Of a DNA stretch of 64,000 nucleotides, positions 14,393 through 51,432 are shown piece by piece. Under the pieces are notes generated by a model that did not search any database, was not told the origin of the DNA, and saw only the letters and a list, made by a program, of their open reading frames with translations. The stretch is from Rossellomorea sp. AcN35-11 (GTDB taxonomy: Bacteria; Bacillota; Bacilli; Bacillales; Bacillaceae_B). Every line of letters starts with the position of its first letter. Position 1 is the stretch's first letter. Location: contig CP128835.1 in the NCBI GenBank assembly GCA_030388825.1, positions 1,002,501 through 1,066,500 on the forward strand, written 5' to 3'. Made by a program: the position numbers and the translations under genes.

Positions 14393-16288
14393 ATGCAATA
14401 TGACGCAGGGCAATATGATGTCATTGTCATTGGTGCCGGCCATGCCGGAGTGGAAGCGGGACTTGCTTCCGCCCGTATGGGGGCTAAAACGTTAATGGTG
14501 ACCATTAACTTAGATATGGTAGCCTTTATGCCGTGTAATCCATCTGTCGGTGGGCCGGCAAAAGGAATTGTTGTAAGAGAGATTGACGCCCTTGGCGGTG
14601 AAATGGGGCGTAATATAGATAAAACACATATCCAAATGAGAATGTTGAACACAGGAAAAGGCCCAGCCGTTCGTGCATTACGGGCACAGGCCGATAAATT
14701 CCTTTATCAGCATGAAATGAAGCGTACAATCGAAAATGAACCAAACATGACCCTTATGCAGGGGATGGTCGAGGAACTGATTGTGGAAGACGGTGAATGT
14801 AAAGGTGTTGTCACGATGACTGGTGCTGCGTACCGAGGGAAAACAGTCGTCATCACAACGGGAACCTTTCTCCGTGGAGAAATCATTTTAGGTGATCTGA
14901 AATATTCAAGCGGACCAAATAACCAGCAGCCTTCCATCAGACTATCTGATCACCTGCATGAATTGGGCTTCGACACCGTTCGTTTTAAAACGGGGACACC
15001 ACCGCGGGTCAATAGTTCAACGATTGACTATTCAAAGACAGAAATTCAGCCGGGGGGATGATGTTCCACGTGCATTCAGCTATGAAACGACAAAATACAT
15101 CACTGACCAACTTCCGTGTTGGCTGACGTATACGAACGAACACACTCATCAATTGATCGATGATAATCTGCATCGTTCACCAATGTACTCTGGAATGATT
15201 AAAGGAACTGGACCGCGATATTGTCCTTCCATTGAAGATAAAGTCGTCCGTTTCCATGACAAACCACGTCACCAGATTTTCCTGGAGCCTGAGGGAAGAA
15301 ACACTCAGGAAGTGTATGTTCAAGGATTATCCACCAGCTTACCTGAAGATGTTCAGCAAAAGATCCTTCAAACGATCCCTGGTCTTGAAGAAGTACAAAT
15401 GATGCGTGCCGGGTACGCCATTGAGTATGATTCAATCGTGCCGACCCAATTATGGCCGACCCTTGAAACGAAAAAAAATCAAAAATCTTTATACAGCGGG
15501 ACAAATCAACGGAACTTCCGGTTATGAAGAAGCGGCTGGACAAGGACTGATGGCTGGAATCAATGCTGCCTGCCGCGCTTTAGATAAAGATGAAGTCATC
15601 TTAGGCCGGTCCGACGCGTATATCGGGGTCCTCATTGATGATCTTGTGACAAAAGGAACGAATGAACCGTATCGTCTTTTGACTTCACGTGCTGAATATC
15701 GTCTGTTGCTGCGTCATGACAACGCCGATCTCCGCTTAACGGATATCGGTCATAAAATCGGCTTGATCTCTGATGATCGATACGAGCGCTTCACGGCCAA
15801 GAAAGAAGCGATCGCTTGCCGAGAAGAAGCGTCTTCAAGGCATCCGGATTAAGCCTACTGACGAAACACAGGCCGTCATCCGCGAAGCTGGAGGAAGTGA
15901 GCTGAAAGACGGAATCGTAGCGGTGGATCTTCTGAAGCGACCTGAAATGAACTATAGCCATATTAAATCCCTCGTCCCGAGTGAAGTCGAGCTGGATGCT
16001 GATGTTGAAGAACAGGTTGAAATCCAGGTGAAATATGAAGGGTATATTGAAAAGTCTCTTCAACAAGTCGATAAAATGAAAAAAATGGAAAACAAACGAA
16101 TTCCTGAGAACATTGATTACAACGCAATCAGCGGTTTAGCGTCTGAAGCAAGACAGAAATTGATTGAGGTTCAGCCTCTATCCCTTGCCCAGGCGTCCCG
16201 TATCGCAGGGGTGAATCCTGCGGATATCTCTATATTACTCGTCTACATCGAGCAAGGGAAAATCGCAAAAGTATCCGGTGATCAATAG
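14393..16288 (+). CDS. mnmG: tRNA uridine-modification enzyme MnmG (GidA), three apparent +1 frameshifts
   Basis: MnmG is the FAD-binding partner of MnmE. The N-terminus shows the dinucleotide motif [12 protein letters not shown]. The open frame shifts three times, each time by one extra base. A G6 run at 15052-15057 needs G5 to read [10 protein letters not shown]. An A8 run at 15471-15478 needs A7 to read [17 protein letters not shown] at 15816-15817 needs a single T to read [12 protein letters not shown]. With those three bases removed the gene encodes 630 residues, the normal length. Two of the changes sit in homopolymers, so sequencing error is preferred over true decay. A good GGAGG site precedes the ATG. 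Confidence 0.95.
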
Positions 16289-18703: not shown

Positions 18704-19465
18704 TTGGGCAGAATCATAGCCATTACAAACCAAAAAGGGGGCGTGGGAAAAACCACCACATCCGTCAATTTGGGGGCTTGTTTAGCTTATATAGGGAAAA
18801 AGGTTTTACTCGTGGATATAGATCCTCAAGGAAACGCCACTAGCGGTGTAGGCGTGGAAAAAGGGGATGTCCAGCAATGTATATATGATGTGTTAGTGGA
18901 CGATGTAGACATCTACGAAACCATAAAACAGTCTAAAGTTGAAAATTTATCCATTGTGCCTGCGACGATTTCATTGGCTGGAGCAGAAATTGAACTTGTT
19001 CCGACCATCTCACGTGAAGTGCGGTTAAAGAAAGCGTTAGAAAAAGTAAAGGATCAATTTGATTATATTATCATTGATTGCCCACCGTCATTAGGGTTAT
19101 TGACGATTAATTCATTAACCGCTTCAGATGCCGTCATCATTCCTGTACAGTGTGAATATTACGCTTTGGAAGGTTTAAGTCAGCTGCTGAGTACAGTTCG
19201 TCTAGTTCAGAAACATCTGAATCAGGATCTGATGATTGATGGTGTACTGTTAACGATGCTGGATGCCAGAACCAATCTCGGGATTCAAGTCATCGAAGAA
19301 GTGAAAAAATATTTTCAAGATAAAGTGTATCGCACAATCATTCCGCGTAATGTTCGTTTAAGTGAAGCGCCCAGTCATGGTGAGCCCATTATCATTTATG
19401 ATGCGAAGTCCAGGGGAGCAGAAGTTTATTTAGAACTAGCAAAGGAAGTGGTGGCGAATGGCTAA
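18704..19465 (+). CDS. soj: Chromosome-partitioning ATPase Soj (ParA)
   Basis: Soj is a ParA-family ATPase that acts with Spo0J in origin segregation and regulates DnaA. The 253 residues carry the deviant Walker A QKGGVGKTTT near the start and the Walker A' stretch VLLVDIDPQGNATSG. The TTG at 18704 was chosen because AGGTAGGTG sits 6-7 bases upstream and the family begins MGRIIAITNQKG. A GTG at 18695 overlaps that site. The end overlaps spo0J by 8 bases. Confidence 0.96.
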   Translation: MGRIIAITNQKGGVGKTTTSVNLGACLAYIGKKVLLVDIDPQGNATSGVGVEKGDVQQCIYDVLVDDVDIYETIKQSKVENLSIVPATISLAGAEIELVPTISREVRLKKALEKVKDQFDYIIIDCPPSLGLLTINSLTASDAVIIPVQCEYYALEGLSQLLSTVRLVQKHLNQDLMIDGVLLTMLDARTNLGIQVIEEVKKYFQDKVYRTIIPRNVRLSEAPSHGEPIIIYDAKSRGAEVYLELAKEVVANG

Positions 19466-20306
19466 AGGTTTAGGGAAAGGGATAAATGCTCTCTTTACTA
19501 ATATCCAATCAACTCAAAAAGAAGAGTCCGTACAAGAAGTAAGCTTGAAAGAAATACGGCCGAATCCTTATCAGCCAAGGAAAATCTTCGATGAGACAGC
19601 CATCGACGAATTAAAAGAATCGATCTTGGAGCACGGTATCCTGCAACCGATCATTGTTCGCAAAACGATCAAAGGTTATGAAATTGTCGTAGGGGAACGC
19701 CGTTATCGTGCGGCTAAAGCCGCTAAATTAGACTCCGCTCCTGTTGTGATCCGGGAATTGAATGATCAACAGATGATGGAGCTCGCCGTCCTGGAAAATC
19801 TTCAACGGGAAGATCTCACACCCATCGAAGAAGGCGCAGCTTACCAAATGCTCATGGATAAGCTTAAGCTCACTCAGGAGGAATTAGCTAAGAGATTAGG
19901 GAAGAGCCGACCTCATATTGCCAACCATATCCGTCTCTTGTCCCTGCCTGCCCCTGTCCAGGAACTTATCTCGGAAGGTAAGTTAACCATGGGACATGGC
20001 CGCGCGCTTCTTGGGCTTAAAAATAAAAAGAATTTATCACCGGTTGTAAATCGTATTCTTAAAGAATCATTGAACGTAAGGCAGTTAGAGAAAATCATTA
20101 AAGAACTAAATGAAAATGTTCCACGTGAAACAAAAAAGAAAGAACGGAAAGATGTCTTTATTCAGGAACAGGAATCCCTTCTGCGGGAACGCTTCGGCAC
20201 AACAGTGACCATTAAACAATCGAAGAAAAAAAGGAAAGATCGAGTTGGAATTCTTTTCAAAAGAAGATTTGGATCGAATTTTGGAGTTGCTGCAGTAGGG
20301 AGATAA
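19458..20306 (+). CDS. spo0J: Chromosome-partitioning protein Spo0J (ParB)
   Basis: Spo0J is the CTP-dependent DNA clamp that loads at parS and recruits SMC. The 282-residue protein has the CTP-binding motifs GERRYRAAKAA and ENLQREDLTPIEEG and the helix-turn-helix LTQEELAKRLGKSRPHIANH. A parS site lies inside its own gene at 20117-20132. It overlaps soj by 8 bases, forming the usual soj-spo0J operon. Confidence 0.97.
   Translation: MAKGLGKGINALFTNIQSTQKEESVQEVSLKEIRPNPYQPRKIFDETAIDELKESILEHGILQPIIVRKTIKGYEIVVGERRYRAAKAAKLDSAPVVIRELNDQQMMELAVLENLQREDLTPIEEGAAYQMLMDKLKLTQEELAKRLGKSRPHIANHIRLLSLPAPVQELISEGKLTMGHGRALLGLKNKKNLSPVVNRILKESLNVRQLEKIIKELNENVPRETKKKERKDVFIQEQESLLRERFGTTVTIKQSKKKRKDRVGILFKRRFGSNFGVAAVGR
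20117..20132. other. parS: parS site within spo0J
   Basis: TGTTCCACGTGAAACA differs from the palindromic consensus TGTTTCACGTGAAACA at one position. From memory, the parS inside B. subtilis spo0J has this same variant. Confidence 0.9.
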
Positions 20307-20423: not shown

Positions 20424-21139
20424 ATGGTACTTTTAGGAACGCTGGTTAATGGAATATGTATTATAATCGGTACTCTTTTGGGGAAGGTCCTTCACCGCAT
20501 ACCTGAAGATATGAAGGGAACGGTCATGAAAGCCATCGGTTTAGCCGTAATCGTACTCGGTTTGCAGATGGGGTTGAAAAGTGAAAACTTTCTCATCGTC
20601 ATCATCAGCCTGGCTGTGGGTGCTGCCTGGGGAGAGTGGATGAATCTGGAAGGGAAACTTAACTCATTGGGAAACTGGTTGGAATCGAAGATTGGCAGTC
20701 ATAAGGAAACATCGATTTCTCAAGGATTTGTAACCGCAACCTTGATTTTTGTCATTGGTGCAATGGCGATTATAGGTGCATTGGACAGCGGCATCAGGGG
20801 AGATCATGATGTTCTGTTGACCAAATCCATCATAGATGGTTTTACATCCCCCTCATCCTCACGACGACGTTGGGGATCGGTGTCATGTTTTCAGCGATAC
20901 CAGTCGTCCTTTATCAAGGATTTATTGCTCTGTTTGCGACTCAGATTCACCAGTGGATCCCTGGTGATCTGATGGATGCTTATATTGTGGAAATGACGTC
21001 AACAGGAGGCATCATGATTTTCGCCATTGGATTGAATCTCCTTGGCGTTACGAAAATCAGAGTCGCGAATCTATTGCCGGGGATCATCGTGGTAGGTGTC
21101 GTCGTTGGGGTCATCTATGGGTATCAGCACTATATGTAA
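20424..21139 (+). CDS. DUF554 family membrane protein, apparent frameshift
   Basis: A hydrophobic protein of about 237 residues opening MVLLGTLVNGICIIIGTLLGK, typical of DUF554 (YdfK/YqgA-type) inner-membrane proteins of unknown function. The first frame runs to about residue 137 (SIIDGFTS) and the second continues LTTTLGIGVMFSAIPVVLYQG. The break falls in a C5 run at 20848-20852. Three C would give GFTSLILTTTLG, six would give one extra residue. Neighbouring genes are spo0J upstream and convergent yyaC downstream. About six membrane segments are visible. Confidence 0.85.
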
Positions 21140-36753: not shown

Positions 36754-36793
36754 AAAAAATCTCAGTCCCTGAAACAGGGACTGAGATTTTTTT
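36754..36793. terminator. Bidirectional terminator between purA and the potassium channel gene
   Basis: AAATCTCAGTCCCTG pairs with CAGGGACTGAGATTT, a 15-bp perfect stem, flanked by A-run and T-run. Confidence 0.95.
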
Positions 36794-37814
36794 ATTGGTT
36801 CAATTGTTCGTACACTCTGTCGTGGCAAACGACATAAAGGATATCATCAGCATGCAGTTCCCGGTTCATGGCATCGGTGAAATCCATATTATCATTCACA
36901 GCGAGGAGAATAGCTCCTTTTTCCAGGAGTTCGTCCGATGCCTGCTTGATGTTAGTCCAATTCTCTTTGACGCTCAGTTCGTGTATATTATTACCGTATC
37001 GTTTACTGAGCAATTGCCTGAACAAATTAGTGGTACCTGGGTGAAGGGTCGCTTTCGCCATCAGGAGGGAAACGGAATCATTCGATAGGATGAAATCCTC
37101 GACGGCGATATGCTGAAACTTCGGAATGTGACGGTCTTCCGATACTTCCACGATAGTATGAACCTCCCTCTTATGGGTTTTCGATAATCCTTCAACGGCA
37201 GATGCAATCAGCAGAGTCTTGCCATCCATAAGGGAAGCATCCTCAATTTTCGAATCAGAGAAGATGGCCACACGTTTTGCCTCGAAGATATTTGCTTTCA
37301 GCAGTACAGCTTCATCTGAGGGATCACCCTGGATGAAATGGACCTGCTCATGCTCCATCGGTGTAGTGGGCAGCTTATCGATGAGGACGATTTCAGCGTC
37401 TGGTACATGAGCCAGGACTTCTTCAATGGCTCTTTCCGTTTTCTTTGACCAATTGATGTATATATAATGGTCTTCATATGTATACACTAGCTTTCCCTCC
37501 CTTTTAAATTTCTGAAATGTAGTGATGGAATCAACGGTCTTACTGATCAACACCCCGATGATCCCGATTCCGAAGATAAATAAGAAGATCCCAAGCAGTC
37601 GTCCACCAACCGTGACGGGGAAGTAATCTCCATATCCGACAGTGGTCAAGGTCGTCATCGTCCACCAGAACCCGTCAAAAAGCGAAGGAAAGGTTTCAGG
37701 CTCCAAATAATGGCTGCCAAAGGTTCCAAACAGGACGATAATCAGAGATAATAAAAGAATGAAGCCGAAGTCCATCTTCGTAATCTGTTTCCAAATCCTT
37801 TGAAATATGATCAT
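36792..37814 (-). CDS. Potassium channel with RCK (TrkA-N) domain
   Basis: A two-helix potassium channel of 340 residues. Membrane helix 1 lies near residues 13-35. The pore loop contains the selectivity filter TTVGYGDYFP (about 57-66). Membrane helix 2 is followed by a cytoplasmic RCK/TrkA-N-like regulatory region (about 105-330), as in MthK and B. subtilis YugO. The start was set at 37814 because AAGGAGGG lies 5 bases upstream; a longer reading from 37847 has none. The promoter region is shared with the divergent cluster beginning at 37939. Confidence 0.93.
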   Translation of the reverse strand: MIIFQRIWKQITKMDFGFILLLSLIIVLFGTFGSHYLEPETFPSLFDGFWWTMTTLTTVGYGDYFPVTVGGRLLGIFLFIFGIGIIGVLISKTVDSITTFQKFKREGKLVYTYEDHYIYINWSKKTERAIEEVLAHVPDAEIVLIDKLPTTPMEHEQVHFIQGDPSDEAVLLKANIFEAKRVAIFSDSKIEDASLMDGKTLLIASAVEGLSKTHKREVHTIVEVSEDRHIPKFQHIAVEDFILSNDSVSLLMAKATLHPGTTNLFRQLLSKRYGNNIHELSVKENWTNIKQASDELLEKGAILLAVNDNMDFTDAMNRELHADDILYVVCHDRVYEQLNQ

Positions 37815-37871
37815 ACATACCCTCCTTATCAAAAAATCATAGTTCAATCATACCAATGAACGTCAGGGAAA

Positions 37872-37900
37872 TGAAACTTTTTTCCTGATGGAATCGTATA
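37872..37900 (+). promoter_or_regulatory. ECF-sigma-type promoter (SigW/SigM/SigX-like)
   Basis: TGAAAC (37872-37877) and CGTATA (37895-37900) separated by 17 bases match the B. subtilis SigW-type pattern TGAAAC-N16/17-CGTA, including a T-rich stretch just after the -35 element. An overlapping TAGAAT (37899-37904) could alternatively act as a sigma-A -10, but no good -35 accompanies it. Confidence 0.6.
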
Positions 37901-37938
37901 GAATAAAAGAAATCATAGTGGGAGGCTGGATTCATAAA

Positions 37939-38403
37939 ATGAAAGAACCGATACTAGAATATCGATTGAGAAAAGGGAACGACACCTTCGAAGCGATTTA
38001 CCATTATCCTGAAATCGAGCTGGAACAGATCCTGGCGAGGCGGGAATGTGAGTTCTTCGTAAAAGAAGGCGTTACCTACCGTCAGCTTTCTTCTGCCATA
38101 GAAGGGAATCGATTCATCCTATATGTCGAACTATATGAAGAGGAACCGTTGAAGGATCCTTTGTTCCCTCCTGAAGGATTGATATTGGAAATTCGAGAAT
38201 TAAATCCGCGGAAACAAAACCCCATCTTAAAGATCGAACACCATGATGATCATCTGGATATTCTAAGTGTCATCGGTTCCGTTTATTATTATATAGATGG
38301 AAACGAATGGGAGCGGGATTCTGCTGAAATCGATGAAGATCGTTATGTGTATATACTATATGTAAAGGCAACGGGATATAAGCTGGAGGAGGAAAGAAGA
38401 TGA
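37939..38403 (+). CDS. Unrecognised soluble protein, first gene of the envelope-type cluster
   Basis: A 154-residue protein with no signal peptide or membrane segment, opening MKEPILEYRLRKGND and ending TGYKLEEERR. It has acidic patches (LYVELYEEEPL, HHDDHLDIL) and a YYYIDGNEWERD stretch. The family is not recognised. By position it could be the counterpart of the first soluble protein (DUF4178- or DUF2491-type) of related clusters, but similarity was not seen. The start at 37939 is the first ATG after the likely transcription start; GGGAGG lies 13 bases upstream, longer than usual. The stop overlaps the lipoprotein ATG (ATGA). Confidence 0.7.
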   Translation: MKEPILEYRLRKGNDTFEAIYHYPEIELEQILARRECEFFVKEGVTYRQLSSAIEGNRFILYVELYEEEPLKDPLFPPEGLILEIRELNPRKQNPILKIEHHDDHLDILSVIGSVYYYIDGNEWERDSAEIDEDRYVYILYVKATGYKLEEERR

Positions 38404-38709
38404 ACAAAACAAAAAAAAATGATGGCAGGAGTGGCCGCATCCGTATTGGCCATTGCTGTCACGGGCTGCGGAAATCAGGAGCTTCCGCCGGAACCGACGG
38501 ATGTGGACTGTGACGATTGGGATTGGGACGACGAAAGCGGCACGTATTATTGTGATGACGACCGTTCTCCCCATTTCGGTTATTTTTGGTTTGCCGGAAA
38601 AATGTTTAAAAACAAGTCGAGCCTGAAAAATTTCCCAAGCTATAAATCTTACTCAAAAAGCTATAAATCCGGAATTGGGAGCGGCTCTAAAGGCGGGTTT
38701 GGAGGGTAA
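38400..38709 (+). CDS. Small acidic lipoprotein, apparent frameshift near the start
   Basis: The protein has a hydrophobic leader (VAASVLAIAV) and lipobox TGCG, then an acidic Asp/Trp-rich segment (CDDWDWDDESGTYYCDDD). It ends in a Ser/Gly/Lys/Tyr-rich tail with repeated KSYSKSYKSG-type units. The natural start is ATG 38400 with GGAGGAGG upstream (MNKTKK). It is out of frame with the rest because of an A9 run at 38411-38419; A8 restores a protein of 102 residues. A start at 38419 would lack the basic n-region. DUF1190/YgiB-like lipoproteins accompany the same ligase family elsewhere. It overlaps the previous gene by 4 bases. Confidence 0.75.
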
Positions 38710-38710
38710 T

Positions 38711-39952
38711 ATGACTGCTTCCCACCGCGAAACAAGAACCCGGTTTTATAAGGAAATCCAAGATTTTTGGTATGACTTATATGGCATGGAATACGCACTA
38801 TTGGATATAAAGAAAGAATCACGTGAAACGGTTGAGAGAATACAGGAAGCATCCAAACGGGTGCACTCCATCTTTGTGAAAACAGCGGATCTGCTTCGGA
38901 GCTTGGAAGATGAGACCCTCCTTGAGCTTGGATACCCTGAGGAATCTCTTTCTTATATACGGTTTAAGTCCATACCCCAGGAATGTATCATCGGACGATT
39001 TGATTTCGTCGTAACAGAAGGAGGCATCAAACTACTAGAGTTTAATAGTGATACGCCTACCTTCCTTAAAGAGCTTTATCACGTGAATGAGAAGGTCTGC
39101 CGGTATTTCCGGTGTCCCAATCCAAACGAAGGCCTTGAAGTACAACTGGCCAGGGAATTAAAGCGGGGTCTCCTGTCTTCCTGGAAGTCCCTTCAACGGG
39201 AAGGGGAACCGAAAATCGTCTTCACCTCCCATAGGGATCATGAGGAAGACCACTTGACAACCAGGTATCTGCAGCAGCTATCAGGGGTTCCTTCAGAGTA
39301 TGTGGCCCTCGACCAGTTGCAAATACGACAGGATGGACTCTATACCCCGAATGGGGAGCGGATCGACGTATTATACAGACCGACATATCCCATCGAGCAT
39401 CTCGTGGATGATCGGGATCCACTGACCGGGGAACCTGTCGGACAGGAACTGATGCAGATGGTAGTCGAGAGAAAAGTAGCGGTGTTAAACCCACCTTCCG
39501 CCTTCTTGCTCCAATCAAAAGGAGTTCAGGCACTTATATGGGGACTTCACGAAGAGGGCAGTCCTTACTATACCGAAGAAGAACACCGGTGGATCGAACG
39601 CTACTTCCTTCCGACATACCTGGATCCCGAAACCTTCGTGGAGAATGGGATGACCTATGTTCAAAAACCTGCATTCGGCCGGGAAGGAGATACGGTCAAA
39701 ATCATGGAAGCAACCGGCCATATCCTGCTGGAAGATAAGAAAGAAACTTACAAACAGTCCCTTCCTGTCTACCAGCAGTTCACCCCTCTTCCCGTATCGG
39801 TGATTACAACCGATGACGGAAAGAAGGATGCAAGCCTGATGGTGGGGAGCTTTATTATCAATGGAGTACCAGGGGCGATCGGCATAAGAGCCGGCAACGC
39901 CATCACCGATAACGAATCATACTTTCTCCCTGTGGGATTACAGGGGAAATAA
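38711..39952 (+). CDS. Glutathionylspermidine synthase-like ATP-grasp ligase (YgiC/YjfC type)
   Basis: A 413-residue ATP-grasp ligase resembling the synthetase half of glutathionylspermidine synthase, without the amidase half. Visible family features are LLEFNSDTPT (about 113), KPAFGREGDTVKI (about 320) and GAIGIRAGNAITDNES near the C-terminus. The peptide or amine substrates are unknown, and glutathione is not expected in most Bacillus, so the name describes the fold and not the reaction. The ATG at 38711 follows GGAGGG; it begins 1 base after the lipoprotein stop. The DUF350 gene follows within 15 bases. Confidence 0.88.
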   Translation: MTASHRETRTRFYKEIQDFWYDLYGMEYALLDIKKESRETVERIQEASKRVHSIFVKTADLLRSLEDETLLELGYPEESLSYIRFKSIPQECIIGRFDFVVTEGGIKLLEFNSDTPTFLKELYHVNEKVCRYFRCPNPNEGLEVQLARELKRGLLSSWKSLQREGEPKIVFTSHRDHEEDHLTTRYLQQLSGVPSEYVALDQLQIRQDGLYTPNGERIDVLYRPTYPIEHLVDDRDPLTGEPVGQELMQMVVERKVAVLNPPSAFLLQSKGVQALIWGLHEEGSPYYTEEEHRWIERYFLPTYLDPETFVENGMTYVQKPAFGREGDTVKIMEATGHILLEDKKETYKQSLPVYQQFTPLPVSVITTDDGKKDASLMVGSFIINGVPGAIGIRAGNAITDNESYFLPVGLQGK

Positions 39953-39967
39953 AAAGGAGAGAAATCT

Positions 39968-40377
39968 ATGCAAATCATAACAAGTGAAGCTCTACTCAGC
40001 TTTCTGGCACACGTAGGAACAGGCCTTGGACTGATGATCCTCGGTATCACGGTCTTCGCCTTCACCACTAAATTCTCGGAAGCGAACCTGATCAGAGAAG
40101 GCAACATTGCCGTTGCCCTCAAACTGTGGGGGAAAGCCATCGGACTTGCCATCGTTATCTACACCGTCTGGGCGAACAGCCTGAATCTGCTTGACGCCTT
40201 TATCTGGGGACTCATCGGGATCGCGACCCAGGTCATCGCCTACTGGATCATCGAGTACGTATTGACTCCCAAGACAAATTTAGCGAAGAAAGTGGAAGAA
40301 GGGAATATTGCCATCGGGTTCTGTTCTCTGCTGCGATTGTAGTGGGATTGATTGTAGCTGCGAGTTTGACGTATTGA
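39968..40377 (+). CDS. DUF350 membrane protein (YjfL-like), apparent frameshift near the end
   Basis: A four-helix membrane protein of 136 residues, formed by two repeats of about 65 residues, with the hallmarks TKFSEANLIREGNIAVAL and NLAKKVEEGNIAIG. A missing G in GGG at 40316-40318 shifts the frame. With GGGG the protein reads on as VLFSAAIVVGLIVAASLTY and stops at 40375-40377. DUF350 proteins are commonly encoded next to glutathionylspermidine-synthase-like ligases and PspA-type proteins. AAAAGGAG precedes the ATG. Confidence 0.85.
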
Positions 40378-40453
40378 TTTATGGGCCTGCTGTTGGAGTG
40401 ATTGTGTGGATGCTTTGGCAAGCGGGTTTTTGTTTTTTTAAGAGTGAAGATTT

Positions 40454-40577
40454 AAGTTGATAAAAAAAGTGGCAAAGTCGATAATATATCGAAAAAGTTG
40501 ATAAATTATAGTTCAAAGTCGATAAAAAATGGAAGTAAGTCGATAGAATATAGCTCAAAGTCGATAATAAAAAGTTT
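40454..40577. repeat. Tandem repeat, period about 21 bp, six units
   Basis: Six units begin AAGT(C/T)GATA at 40454, 40475, 40495, 40516, 40537 and 40558, so spacing is 21, 20, 21, 21, 21. Between the cores the bases are AT-rich and variable. The 296-base gap that contains it has no supported gene. A minus-strand frame through it only mirrors the repeat as LST-containing heptads. Confidence 0.85.
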
Positions 40578-40673: not shown

Positions 40674-41474
40674 ATGGACGTAAATGAAAGGAAAGTTCCT
40701 CTTAAACTATTGAAGTTGGAAGCAATATTGGGACGCTTAGAAAAAGACTACCCCAAAATCCCCTTATTGAAGGAACACCTAAGAAAAATACAAGCAGGCT
40801 ACAATGGTGAAAAAGCAGTTGATTACCAGTTGGGTTATTTGTCCTCCAAAGACTACAATATTTTCTATGATCTAAGACTAGAAGTGAATGGTAGGTATTT
40901 TCAGATCGATACCCTCATATTGACAAGGAGTTTTATTTTAATTATAGAAGTTAAAAACATGTCAGGTGAAGTAAGCTTCGATACTACATTTAATCAATTC
41001 ATTCAGAGCAAAAATGGTTCAATAAATGCTTATCCTGATCCAATTCTTCAGATTAACAGGCAGGAATACCAATTAAAAGAGTGGCTGAAACAGAATCATT
41101 TCCCTCTCATTCCCATACATGGATTTGTCGTTATAAGCAATCCACAAACAATTATCAGTGCTAATAGTGGATCACTAAACAAAAAGGTCATACATGCCGC
41201 TTCCCTCCCCCATAAAATCACTCAACTACAACAACATTTCCATAAAAAATTCTTTTCAGATAAAGAGCTAAAAAAGGTCATCAGGTTTATGAAAAAAATG
41301 AATACTCCTCATAACAATCCGATACTTGAATTCTATAAAATAAGTAAAGATGATATTTTACCCGGAGTCATTTGCAAGGCATGTGGGTACCTCCCCCTAA
41401 CTAGGGAATACGGACAGTGGAAGTGTACAAACTGTCACAAAAATTCAAAGAATGCTCATATTCAAGCTTTATGA
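40674..41474 (+). CDS. NERD domain protein with C-terminal zinc ribbon
   Basis: A 266-residue protein with a NERD (nuclease-related) domain at about 40-160. The predicted PD-(D/E)XK catalytic residues are visible: E46 in GEKAVD, the Asp of FQIDTLIL (about 80) and EVKN (about 92-95). The C-terminus carries CKACGYLPL and CTNCHKNS, a four-cysteine zinc ribbon. Function is unknown; a DNA-processing role is inference from the fold. GGAGTGATG precedes the ATG. The gene is AT-richer than its neighbours and lies between the repeat tract and the tRNA cluster, a typical place for acquired genes. Confidence 0.88.
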   Translation: MDVNERKVPLKLLKLEAILGRLEKDYPKIPLLKEHLRKIQAGYNGEKAVDYQLGYLSSKDYNIFYDLRLEVNGRYFQIDTLILTRSFILIIEVKNMSGEVSFDTTFNQFIQSKNGSINAYPDPILQINRQEYQLKEWLKQNHFPLIPIHGFVVISNPQTIISANSGSLNKKVIHAASLPHKITQLQQHFHKKFFSDKELKKVIRFMKKMNTPHNNPILEFYKISKDDILPGVICKACGYLPLTREYGQWKCTNCHKNSKNAHIQAL

Positions 41475-50189: not shown

Positions 50190-51432
50190 ATGGGTTATTA
50201 TGATTCGGACCATAATTCAGAAAGCAGGAGCAGACAAAAGGGCAATCGGGGAGGCATGTTCCTTGCAGGGTTATTGGGCGTCATACTGGGGGCAGTCCTG
50301 GTCATTGTGGCGGTTCCCCAATTAGCGAACTATAACATATTACCCTATTCCATTCAGCCGGATGAGGATTTGAAAGAAACAGATGAGGCCTATCATAATG
50401 GTGCCACAAAGAGTGTTTCCGTGGATGTGACGACAGATGTGACGAAAGCTGTGGAAAAGGCAGGGGATTCTGTTGTTGGTATCACGAACATTCAATCACA
50501 AAGCTTCTGGGGACAGGGCGGAGGACAAACCCAGGACCAGCAGGCAGGGACAGGCTCCGGGGTGATGTATAAAAAAGAAGGCGACAAGGTTTATATTGTC
50601 ACCAATAATCACGTGGTGGAAGGTGCTGACCAGCTTGAAGTGACCCTTGCCGACGGTACAAAGGTTCCGGCTGAAATGCGGGGTACGGATATTTGGACAG
50701 ACCTTGCCGTCATTGAAATTGATGGCAGTAAAATTGAGAATGATGACATTGCTGAGTTTGGAAATTCAGATAAACTGAAAGCGGGAGAGCCCGTTATCGC
50801 CATCGGGAATCCACTTGGACTCCAGTTTTCAGGATCGGTTACACAGGGGGTTGTTTCAGGAGTGGAACGAACGATCCCTGTCGATATCAACCAGGATGGA
50901 ATGGAAGATTGGAATGCAGAAGTACTTCAAACCGACGCAGCCATCAACCCCGGTAACAGCGGTGGAGCGTTGATCAACATTTCCGGACAGCTGATCGGGA
51001 TCAATTCCATGAAGATTGCCCAGCAAGCTGTAGAAGGCATCGGACTTGCGATTCCCATCAACTATGCTCAGCCGATCATTGCGGATCTGGAGCAGTATGG
51101 TGAAGTGAAGCGACCTGCAATGGGTGTGACCCTTGAGGATGTGAATAAAATATCTGCTTACCACCAGCAGGAAACCCTTAAGCTTCCGAACGGAATCAAT
51201 TATGGTGTCATGGTCAGACAAACCGTCCCGAACTCCCCGGCAGCCACAGGCAGGCTTACAGGAGCTCGATGTAATTACGGAGCTGGACGGAGAAAAAATT
51301 GAGAATGTCATTGAGTTAAGAAAGCATCTTTATAACAAAAAAGATGTAAATGATCAGATGAAAGTCACGTTCTACCGCAATGGTGAAAAGAAAGAAGTCA
51401 CCATGAAACTGACGGATGAATCCCGTCTATAG
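50190..51432 (+). CDS. htrA: HtrA/DegP-family serine protease, apparent frameshift in the PDZ domain
   Basis: A membrane-anchored trypsin-like protease and chaperone for misfolded exported proteins. The protein has a cytoplasmic start, one membrane helix (GGMFLAGLLGVILGAVLV, about 22-42), and a protease domain with His in TNNHVVEGAD, Asp in TDLAVIEID and Ser in NPGNSGGALIN. A C-terminal PDZ domain follows. The frame breaks near 51249-51256 where CACAGGCAGG has one extra G. Restoring CACAGCAGG reads TAGLQELDVITELDGEKI and joins the two parts into about 413 residues. The position after walJ is the usual yycK/htrC location. Confidence 0.94.

Follow-up and report, generated by a model that had tools for sequence, protein, structure and literature searches.

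In Escherichia coli, the ATP-grasp ligases YgiC and YjfC are encoded in the ygiBC and yjfLMC gene sets beside lipoproteins that carry a GGFG or GGYG motif and end in two glycines: YgiB ends SRSMGG with an internal RGGFG, YjfM ends GHWGG with an internal RGGYG, and the yjf set includes a DUF350 gene. RefSeq gives both enzymes the product name 'peptide--spermidine ligase', and PDB structures exist for both (7uk6-7uk8 and 7uka). The peptide-spermidine ligase paper, as cited in passages of PMC12270671, PMC12568646 and PMC10948618, is Pederick et al., 2023. Passages of Ravi et al., 2024 (PMC11237479) describe operons in which a ligase of this type occurs beside PspA together with DUF350, a potassium channel and a lipoprotein, and further operons with a membrane-fused spermidine-synthase-like enzyme. 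Here we analyse a related gene cluster of Rossellomorea sp. AcN35-11, which lies in a 64,000-nucleotide stretch of DNA (the window; positions 1,002,501-1,066,500 of contig C1 in a 4.8 Mb genome of two contigs, G000), and propose that its GspS-like ligase may attach a polyamine to the C-terminal tail of the neighbouring lipoprotein.

The naming of YgiC and YjfC is thus already known, as are, from the passages of the 2024 paper, polyamine/PspA operons that share many of these genes; the initial annotation of the locus had called the chemistry of the E. coli relatives unknown, which the RefSeq name contradicts. Within the literature searched, and as far as we have seen, the tail rule described below and the contrast between two enzyme types are new. 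Titles and abstract openings contained no recognisable report of tail modification of these lipoproteins, Pederick et al., 2023 and Li, 2019 lying outside the scope of that search.

The cluster consists of the following features, with coordinates counted from the first nucleotide of the window:

37872 to 37900, + strand: predicted extracytoplasmic function (ECF) sigma factor promoter of SigW type, TGAAAC-N17-CGTATA; a similar element lies ahead of gene 1 in 19/19 loci of the genus
37939 to 38403, + strand: gene 1, a 154-residue protein of a family without a Pfam or NCBIfam model; two beta-beta-alpha-beta-beta-beta copies; 31 members scanned
38400 to 38709, + strand: lipoprotein gene; lipobox VTGC, an acidic Cys-bounded domain, then a Lys/Ser/Gly tail
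38665 to 38706, + strand: conserved C-terminal tail of the lipoprotein, KSGIGSGSKGGFGG, the proposed ligase substrate; across 20 genus sequences, 18 of the final 20 residues do not vary
38711 to 39952, + strand: GspS-like ATP-grasp ligase of the YgiC/YjfC type, 413 residues; PF03738, 198.4 bits
39968 to 40342, + strand: DUF350 membrane protein; PF03994, 104.7 bits; homology in another frame runs on to 40377
36792 to 37847, - strand: divergent potassium channel with a TrkA_N domain; PF07885, 60.4 bits, and PF02254, 30.7 bits

Like YgiBC and YjfLMC, the window cluster joins this ligase family to an adjacent lipoprotein with a G-[FYI]-G motif and a small C-terminal residue after the lipobox Cys. 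It differs from them in its gene 1 family, SigW-type promoter and divergent potassium channel, in a lipoprotein body without a DUF1190 match, and in having no neighbours corresponding to yjfI, yjfJ (PspA family) and yjfK. The third group of operons in the passages of PMC11237479 likewise brings together ATP-grasp ligase, DUF350, potassium channel and lipoprotein, whereas the window cluster has no PspA or CesT/Tir gene and hence no CesT/Tir-PspA dyad. In those passages the gene 1 family is unnamed, and the main text does not use the words glycine, lysine or YgiB.

C-terminal tails of the partner lipoproteins

Over the last 20 codons of the lipoprotein gene, synonymous sites are near saturation among the genus sequences, with a mean nonsynonymous rate (dN) of 0.019 and a synonymous rate (dS) of 2.1 (151/190 scorable pairs); for the body of the protein the values are 0.065 and 1.4 (85 pairs from 17 equal-length sequences). 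The tail is under purifying selection. In the predicted structure its confidence (predicted local distance difference test, pLDDT) is 45-62, compared with 81-92 for the body, and the signal peptide is also low, which fits a free, flexible tail.

We then compared ligase loci more widely, taking the best 80 of at least 551 ligase relatives (31 from Bacillota, 49 others). A partner was defined as a same-strand open reading frame (ORF) upstream, within 1300 bases, with a lipobox, a rule that is blind to the C-terminus; controls were non-overlapping ORFs of at least 120 residues from the same loci, some of which are perhaps not genes. Partners were present in 63/80 loci, and 62 of them end in Gly, Ser or Ala, as against 127/688 control ORFs. 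A GG end is found in 34/63 partners and 5/688 controls, and a G-[FIV]-G motif combined with a small end in 58/63 and 51/688, respectively; among control ORFs that have a lipobox, 3/29 have a small end. When an adjacency rule was added for missed loci, 75 of 78 partners ended in Gly, Ser or Ala and none in Lys. Thinning the ligases to below 50% or below 60% identity left such an end in 25/26 and 37/38 partners. An alignment of 33 partners chosen from the 63 has only the lipobox Cys and one Gly invariant, and PF06693 (DUF1190) is matched by 5/33 at an expectation value (E) of 0.01. The proposal in the initial annotation that the Lys/Ser/Gly tail is a plausible substrate is backed by this comparison, at the level of sequence.

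Two other partner rules were tried. A strict GG-end rule was dropped because 29/63 partners end otherwise, and a nearest-lipobox rule on either strand (71/80 loci, 62 of them with a Gly, Ser or Ala end) was replaced because it chose spurious-looking ORFs in several loci. Some lineages show their own variants. In Selenomonas, Veillonella and related bacteria (L064, L065 and L109-L112) a K-SGFG motif is kept with a Ser end, and in three of these loci (L109, L111, L112) DUF350 lies upstream of the lipoprotein. The Bacteroidota partners (L120, L125, L128, L138, L156, L161 and L162) have a diverged tail with a VFG or AFG core and ends HA, HG, HS, SA or AS; with the family models used, no DUF350 was found near these seven.

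A second group of operons, with DUF4178, PspA, a lipoprotein, DUF350 and a spermidine-synthase-like enzyme of 495-557 residues, resembles the window cluster in its DUF350, its Gly-rich-tailed partner and its polyamine-type enzyme, and differs in the kind of enzyme and in a Lys-ended tail. We collected 18 such sister loci, 15 from Bacillota and 3 from the phylum of Geodermatophilus. The lipoprotein or secreted partner ends in Lys in 18/18, typically as RGGGPGAGK or RGGGIFGGK; 14 of these proteins were found by the lipobox rule and 4 (L198, L200, L226 and L227), which fail it, by position and reading. DUF4178 is present in 17 of the loci (not L214), DUF350 in 17 (not L200) and PspA in 14 (not L214 or L226-L228). 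The Lys count leaves out six DUF4178 loci in which the spermidine-synthase-like enzyme is absent (L201-L206), one locus where the enzyme is present and the contig ends before any lipoprotein (L209), and two with a shorter related enzyme of 433-434 residues and no operon (L208 and L213). In two of the enzyme-less DUF4178-DUF350-PspA-like loci (L203 and L205) the lipoprotein ends RRR or GRR, which may represent a third tail type.

On counts uncorrected for relatedness, the two enzyme types also divide the genus. Gene 1 and the ligase occur together in 20/25 genomes and are both missing from the other 5 (one of which is 84% complete), and all five of these carry the spermidine-synthase-like enzyme; in one of them, G008, the remainder of the sister operon is cut off by a contig end. 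In the 19 ligase genomes other than that of the window strain, every speE-type match lies in a frame of fewer than 350 residues. The window strain itself has two weak matches, one of which gave no hit, while the other, on contig C2, is a remote 468-residue relative (23% identity) with no operon. A DUF4178 match is present in one of 30 non-Bacillota ligase genomes (of 49 loci). This exclusivity within the genus is not the main support for the reading favoured below.

A proposed polyamine ligation and its alternatives

With 198.4 bits, the window ligase lies above the PF03738 cut-off of 29.3 bits, and it is a stand-alone enzyme in which no amidase model was matched. It is 26% identical to YgiC and 26% identical to YjfC; our ligase-profile scores against these two are inflated, as both sequences were in the profile. 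Its residues R96, D98, E110, N112 and E179 are invariant across 11 ligases and align with R316, D318, E330, N332 and E391 of GspSA, which we take to be active-site residues. GspSA thus shares with it a PF03738-type ATP-grasp domain and aligned catalytic residues; it differs in having an amidase domain. A speE match is present in 41/41 genomes of our comparison set, the window strain's own included, and above the cut-off in 39.

We propose, with a probability of about 0.5, that the ligase attaches a polyamine to the C-terminal tail of the lipoprotein. The cluster would be an envelope-stress module, switched on by a SigW-type ECF sigma factor, a response predicted from the conserved promoter. 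Its lipoprotein would comprise a folded acidic domain followed by the flexible KSGIGSGSKGGFGG tail, and the YgiC/YjfC-type ligase would phosphorylate the C-terminal carboxylate of that tail and couple to it a polyamine, most likely spermidine, by analogy with the action of GspS on the C-terminal glycine of glutathione. G-[FIV]-G would serve as the recognition element and the terminal Gly, Ser or Ala as the acceptor, with ligation taking place before export. Gene 1 may hold or present the precursor, in place of the CesT/Tir-like protein of the E. coli operon; DUF350 may anchor the precursor or aid its export; and the potassium channel may tie the module to ion balance. In this way a lipoprotein at the cell surface would acquire a polycationic tip able to bind anionic polymers or lipids. 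In the sister operons a spermidine-synthase-like enzyme would achieve the same by aminopropylating a C-terminal lysine.

The next relatives with solved structures, GspSA and trypanothione synthetase, raise the possibility that a small peptide or thiol is the ligase substrate, as glutathione is for GspS, and that the lipoprotein serves as a sensor or receptor, its Gly/Ser tail being a mere linker. A linker would be expected to drift, yet 18 of 20 tail residues are invariant, and across loci the type of tail follows the type of enzyme. Also against it, PF04262 (glutamate-cysteine ligase), the one glutathione gene family searched, was not found in the window strain's genome, and the initial annotation's claim of no glutathione pathway holds to that extent. 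We regard this explanation as unlikely.

About as unlikely is a ubiquitin-like conjugation, in which the ligase would join the C-terminal residue of the lipoprotein to the amine of a large partner, such as a protein lysine, an amino-lipid or the peptidoglycan cross-bridge, rather than to a free polyamine. The flexible, strongly conserved GG-ended tail and the envelope location of the lipoproteins would suit such a role. Against it, the characterised relatives of the ligase are named for spermidine, the sister operons combine a polyamine-type enzyme with Lys ends, and ATP is cytosolic; we would be surprised if it proved correct. Least probable of the three is that the tail is in itself a wall- or membrane-binding element and the ligase targets other envelope proteins or the DUF350 protein. 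Tails rich in Lys, Ser and Gly are able to bind anionic polymers unmodified; against this reading, tail and ligase gene occur as a pair in many phyla despite differing lipoprotein bodies.

Several observations weigh against polyamine ligation to the tail. Topology is its weakest point, as a cytosolic ATP-dependent enzyme would have to act on an exported tail before export, and the activity of the window ligase is itself predicted from its sequence. The window lipoprotein has no PF06693 (DUF1190) match at E 1. The tail survey has limited coverage, as given above, and the distant PF03738 loci L067-L078 fall outside it; a GG end is not universal, being found in 34/63 partners. Five of the 80 loci are without a fitting partner: L129, L136 and L151 are exceptions, and L132 and L153 have no candidate (at L132, 67 bases lie between the start of the match and a contig end). 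At L163, the ORF that entered the count is probably spurious. In the stretches seen, no Gly-tailed lipoprotein accompanies the fused double-ligase proteins of L060, L061 and L066. The p-values of 7e-50 for the same-strand rule and 2e-18 for the adjacency and thinned analysis overstate independence, since the loci share ancestry. As for the contrast with the sister enzyme, the two lipoprotein groups are different families, and the Lys/Gly difference may be inherited rather than functional; the five genus genomes with the sister enzyme may be one clade. Replacement of one system by the other is not general, because G033, outside the genus, has both, with a ligase partner ending GG and another lipoprotein ending GK, and G079 combines the sister operon with a weak PF03738 match of 37.4 bits.

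A wider proposal is that in many phyla envelope lipoproteins receive a polyamine on their C-terminal tail from either of two unrelated enzymes, an ATP-grasp ligase acting on a terminal Gly, Ser or Ala carboxylate or a membrane-fused aminopropyltransferase acting on a terminal lysine, and that within one genus one system replaces the other. We consider this possible and, as a whole, somewhat less likely than not. The tail pattern points to a candidate substrate and residue for YgiC and YjfC, contains an internal contrast between Gly/Ser/Ala ends with the ligase and Lys ends with the sister enzyme, and makes the substrate question testable in E. coli and Bacillus. If ligation to the tail takes place, the cell surface would carry a new lipid-anchored polycation, and the recurrence of polyamine genes in PspA-type envelope-stress operons would be easier to understand.

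The fused double-ligase proteins mentioned above are from Bacillota and have 822-861 residues; PF03738 falls within a single long frame, matching two times in two of these three proteins, and a protein of about 200 residues is encoded downstream.

The gene set, its promoter and gene 1

Gene 1 and the lipoprotein gene overlap by the ATGA of stop and start (38400-38403), 1 base (38710) separates the lipoprotein stop from the ligase ATG, and 15 bases (39953-39967) separate the ligase stop from the DUF350 ATG. These distances agree exactly with those on which the initial annotation had based a single four-gene unit, and the set is conserved: all five families, the potassium channel among them, co-occur in the 19/19 genus loci fetched, and the channel adjoins the cluster in each (it is split over two frames in L040). 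Judged from this arrangement, the divergent channel is a fifth member of the set. The four-gene description was therefore incomplete, having missed the channel, the frame breaks and the second copy on C2 described below.

Among the 41 genomes, gene 1 is found in 25 and the ligase in 26. In 398 genomes from the phylum, gene 1 occurs in 9, all inside the 42 with a PF03738 match, although the profile used to find it derives from ligase neighbourhoods, in part from these same 398 genomes. Outside the genus, gene order and strand vary and the set is kept together in many loci. One genome of the same order outside the genus (G026) has two ligase genes 0.6 kb apart (contig C7, 303571-306467) and no gene 1 match.

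The ECF-type promoter claimed for the cluster is present in the window with a spacing of 17, and TGAAAC-N16/17-CGTAT lies 61-86 bases 5' of gene 1 in all 19 genus loci (the hexamer is exactly TGAAAC in 18 and CGAAAC in 1; spacing of 16 in 17 loci and 17 in 2). The window match alone is not beyond chance, with 1 match against a shuffle mean of 0.11 and at least one match in 11/100 shuffles. The nearest locus outside the genus, L045, has TGAATC-N16-CGTAT. Of 28 other loci scanned over their whole length, 7 have a similar element ahead of the first cluster gene: L048 and L086 (the same stretch), L053 and L100 (the same stretch), L085, L093, where it lies just 33 bases before the start used, and L047, where it has CGTC. 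No such element precedes the first gene in the other 21, the C2 copy included. The sigW gene of the strain is itself read as two overlapping frames of 210.5 and 117.7 bits, each alone below the cut-off of 243.1.

Gene 1 probably starts at the ATG at 37939, downstream of the promoter, because homology begins there and that ATG follows the promoter. The initial annotation had called it novel, and our searches place it in no described family: at E 1 neither Pfam nor NCBIfam gives a match to the window protein, and across the 31 members scanned the best Pfam E is 0.018, with no family shared by more than one member. DUF4178, which holds a like position in sister operons, was considered and rejected; PF13785 was unmatched in the 31 members at E 1, and the strain's own genome has no DUF4178. 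The aligned family has invariant Y8, D132 and R135 (window numbering) and a conserved S-x-E-I-D-E-D-R motif. Its predicted structure (mean pLDDT 92.4) has the same strand-helix pattern twice and no confident match among solved structures, the best Foldseek E being 0.005 and the best VIA Z 5.5, covering roughly half of the model. Hits such as protein L and glutamine synthetase may point to beta-grasp-like halves, and the lack of a clear match is not proof of a new fold.

Frame breaks, second copy and neighbouring genes

Two of the four genes are broken in the window. The lipoprotein frame breaks in a poly-A tract at 38411-38419, so that the open frame as read begins at 38419, and the DUF350 frame breaks near 40320-40330, ending at 40342 instead of 40377 as judged by the C-termini of relatives (its PF03994 score stands despite this broken 3' end). 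Unbroken copies of both are present among the 19 genus loci. The speE and sigW genes of the strain are each split into two overlapping frames, and a comparison with ORFs of the relative G017, which match 35 window genes, shows 4 of these genes split across more than one frame. Sequencing error is likelier than gene decay, because speE, sigW and these four window genes are broken too and intact copies exist in relatives; decay in this strain was set aside on the same grounds. Programmed slippage at the poly-A tract is unsupported, as the 19 genus loci have a single frame throughout. An NCBIfam TrbK match of the lipoprotein (18.7 bits, cut-off 23) was rejected because it spans residues 5-31, hardly beyond the signal peptide.

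The four split genes lie at 14393-16285, 19458-20295, 20424-21136 and 50190-51429, one of them being split several times, and the assembly is error-rich. Contig C2 (628 kb) carries a second complete five-gene set at 424000-438000 (L044), in which gene 1 runs divergently from lipoprotein, ligase and DUF350; this copy has diverged, its ligase being 49% identical to that of the window. The assembly is rated 9.23% contaminated, and C2 may or may not belong to the strain.

The neighbours of the window cluster are purA (identified by reading the ORF), the potassium channel and a NERD-domain gene. The last of these lies 3' of the cluster on the same strand (40674-41474), and a stretch of short repeated words lies between them, at about 40440-40570.

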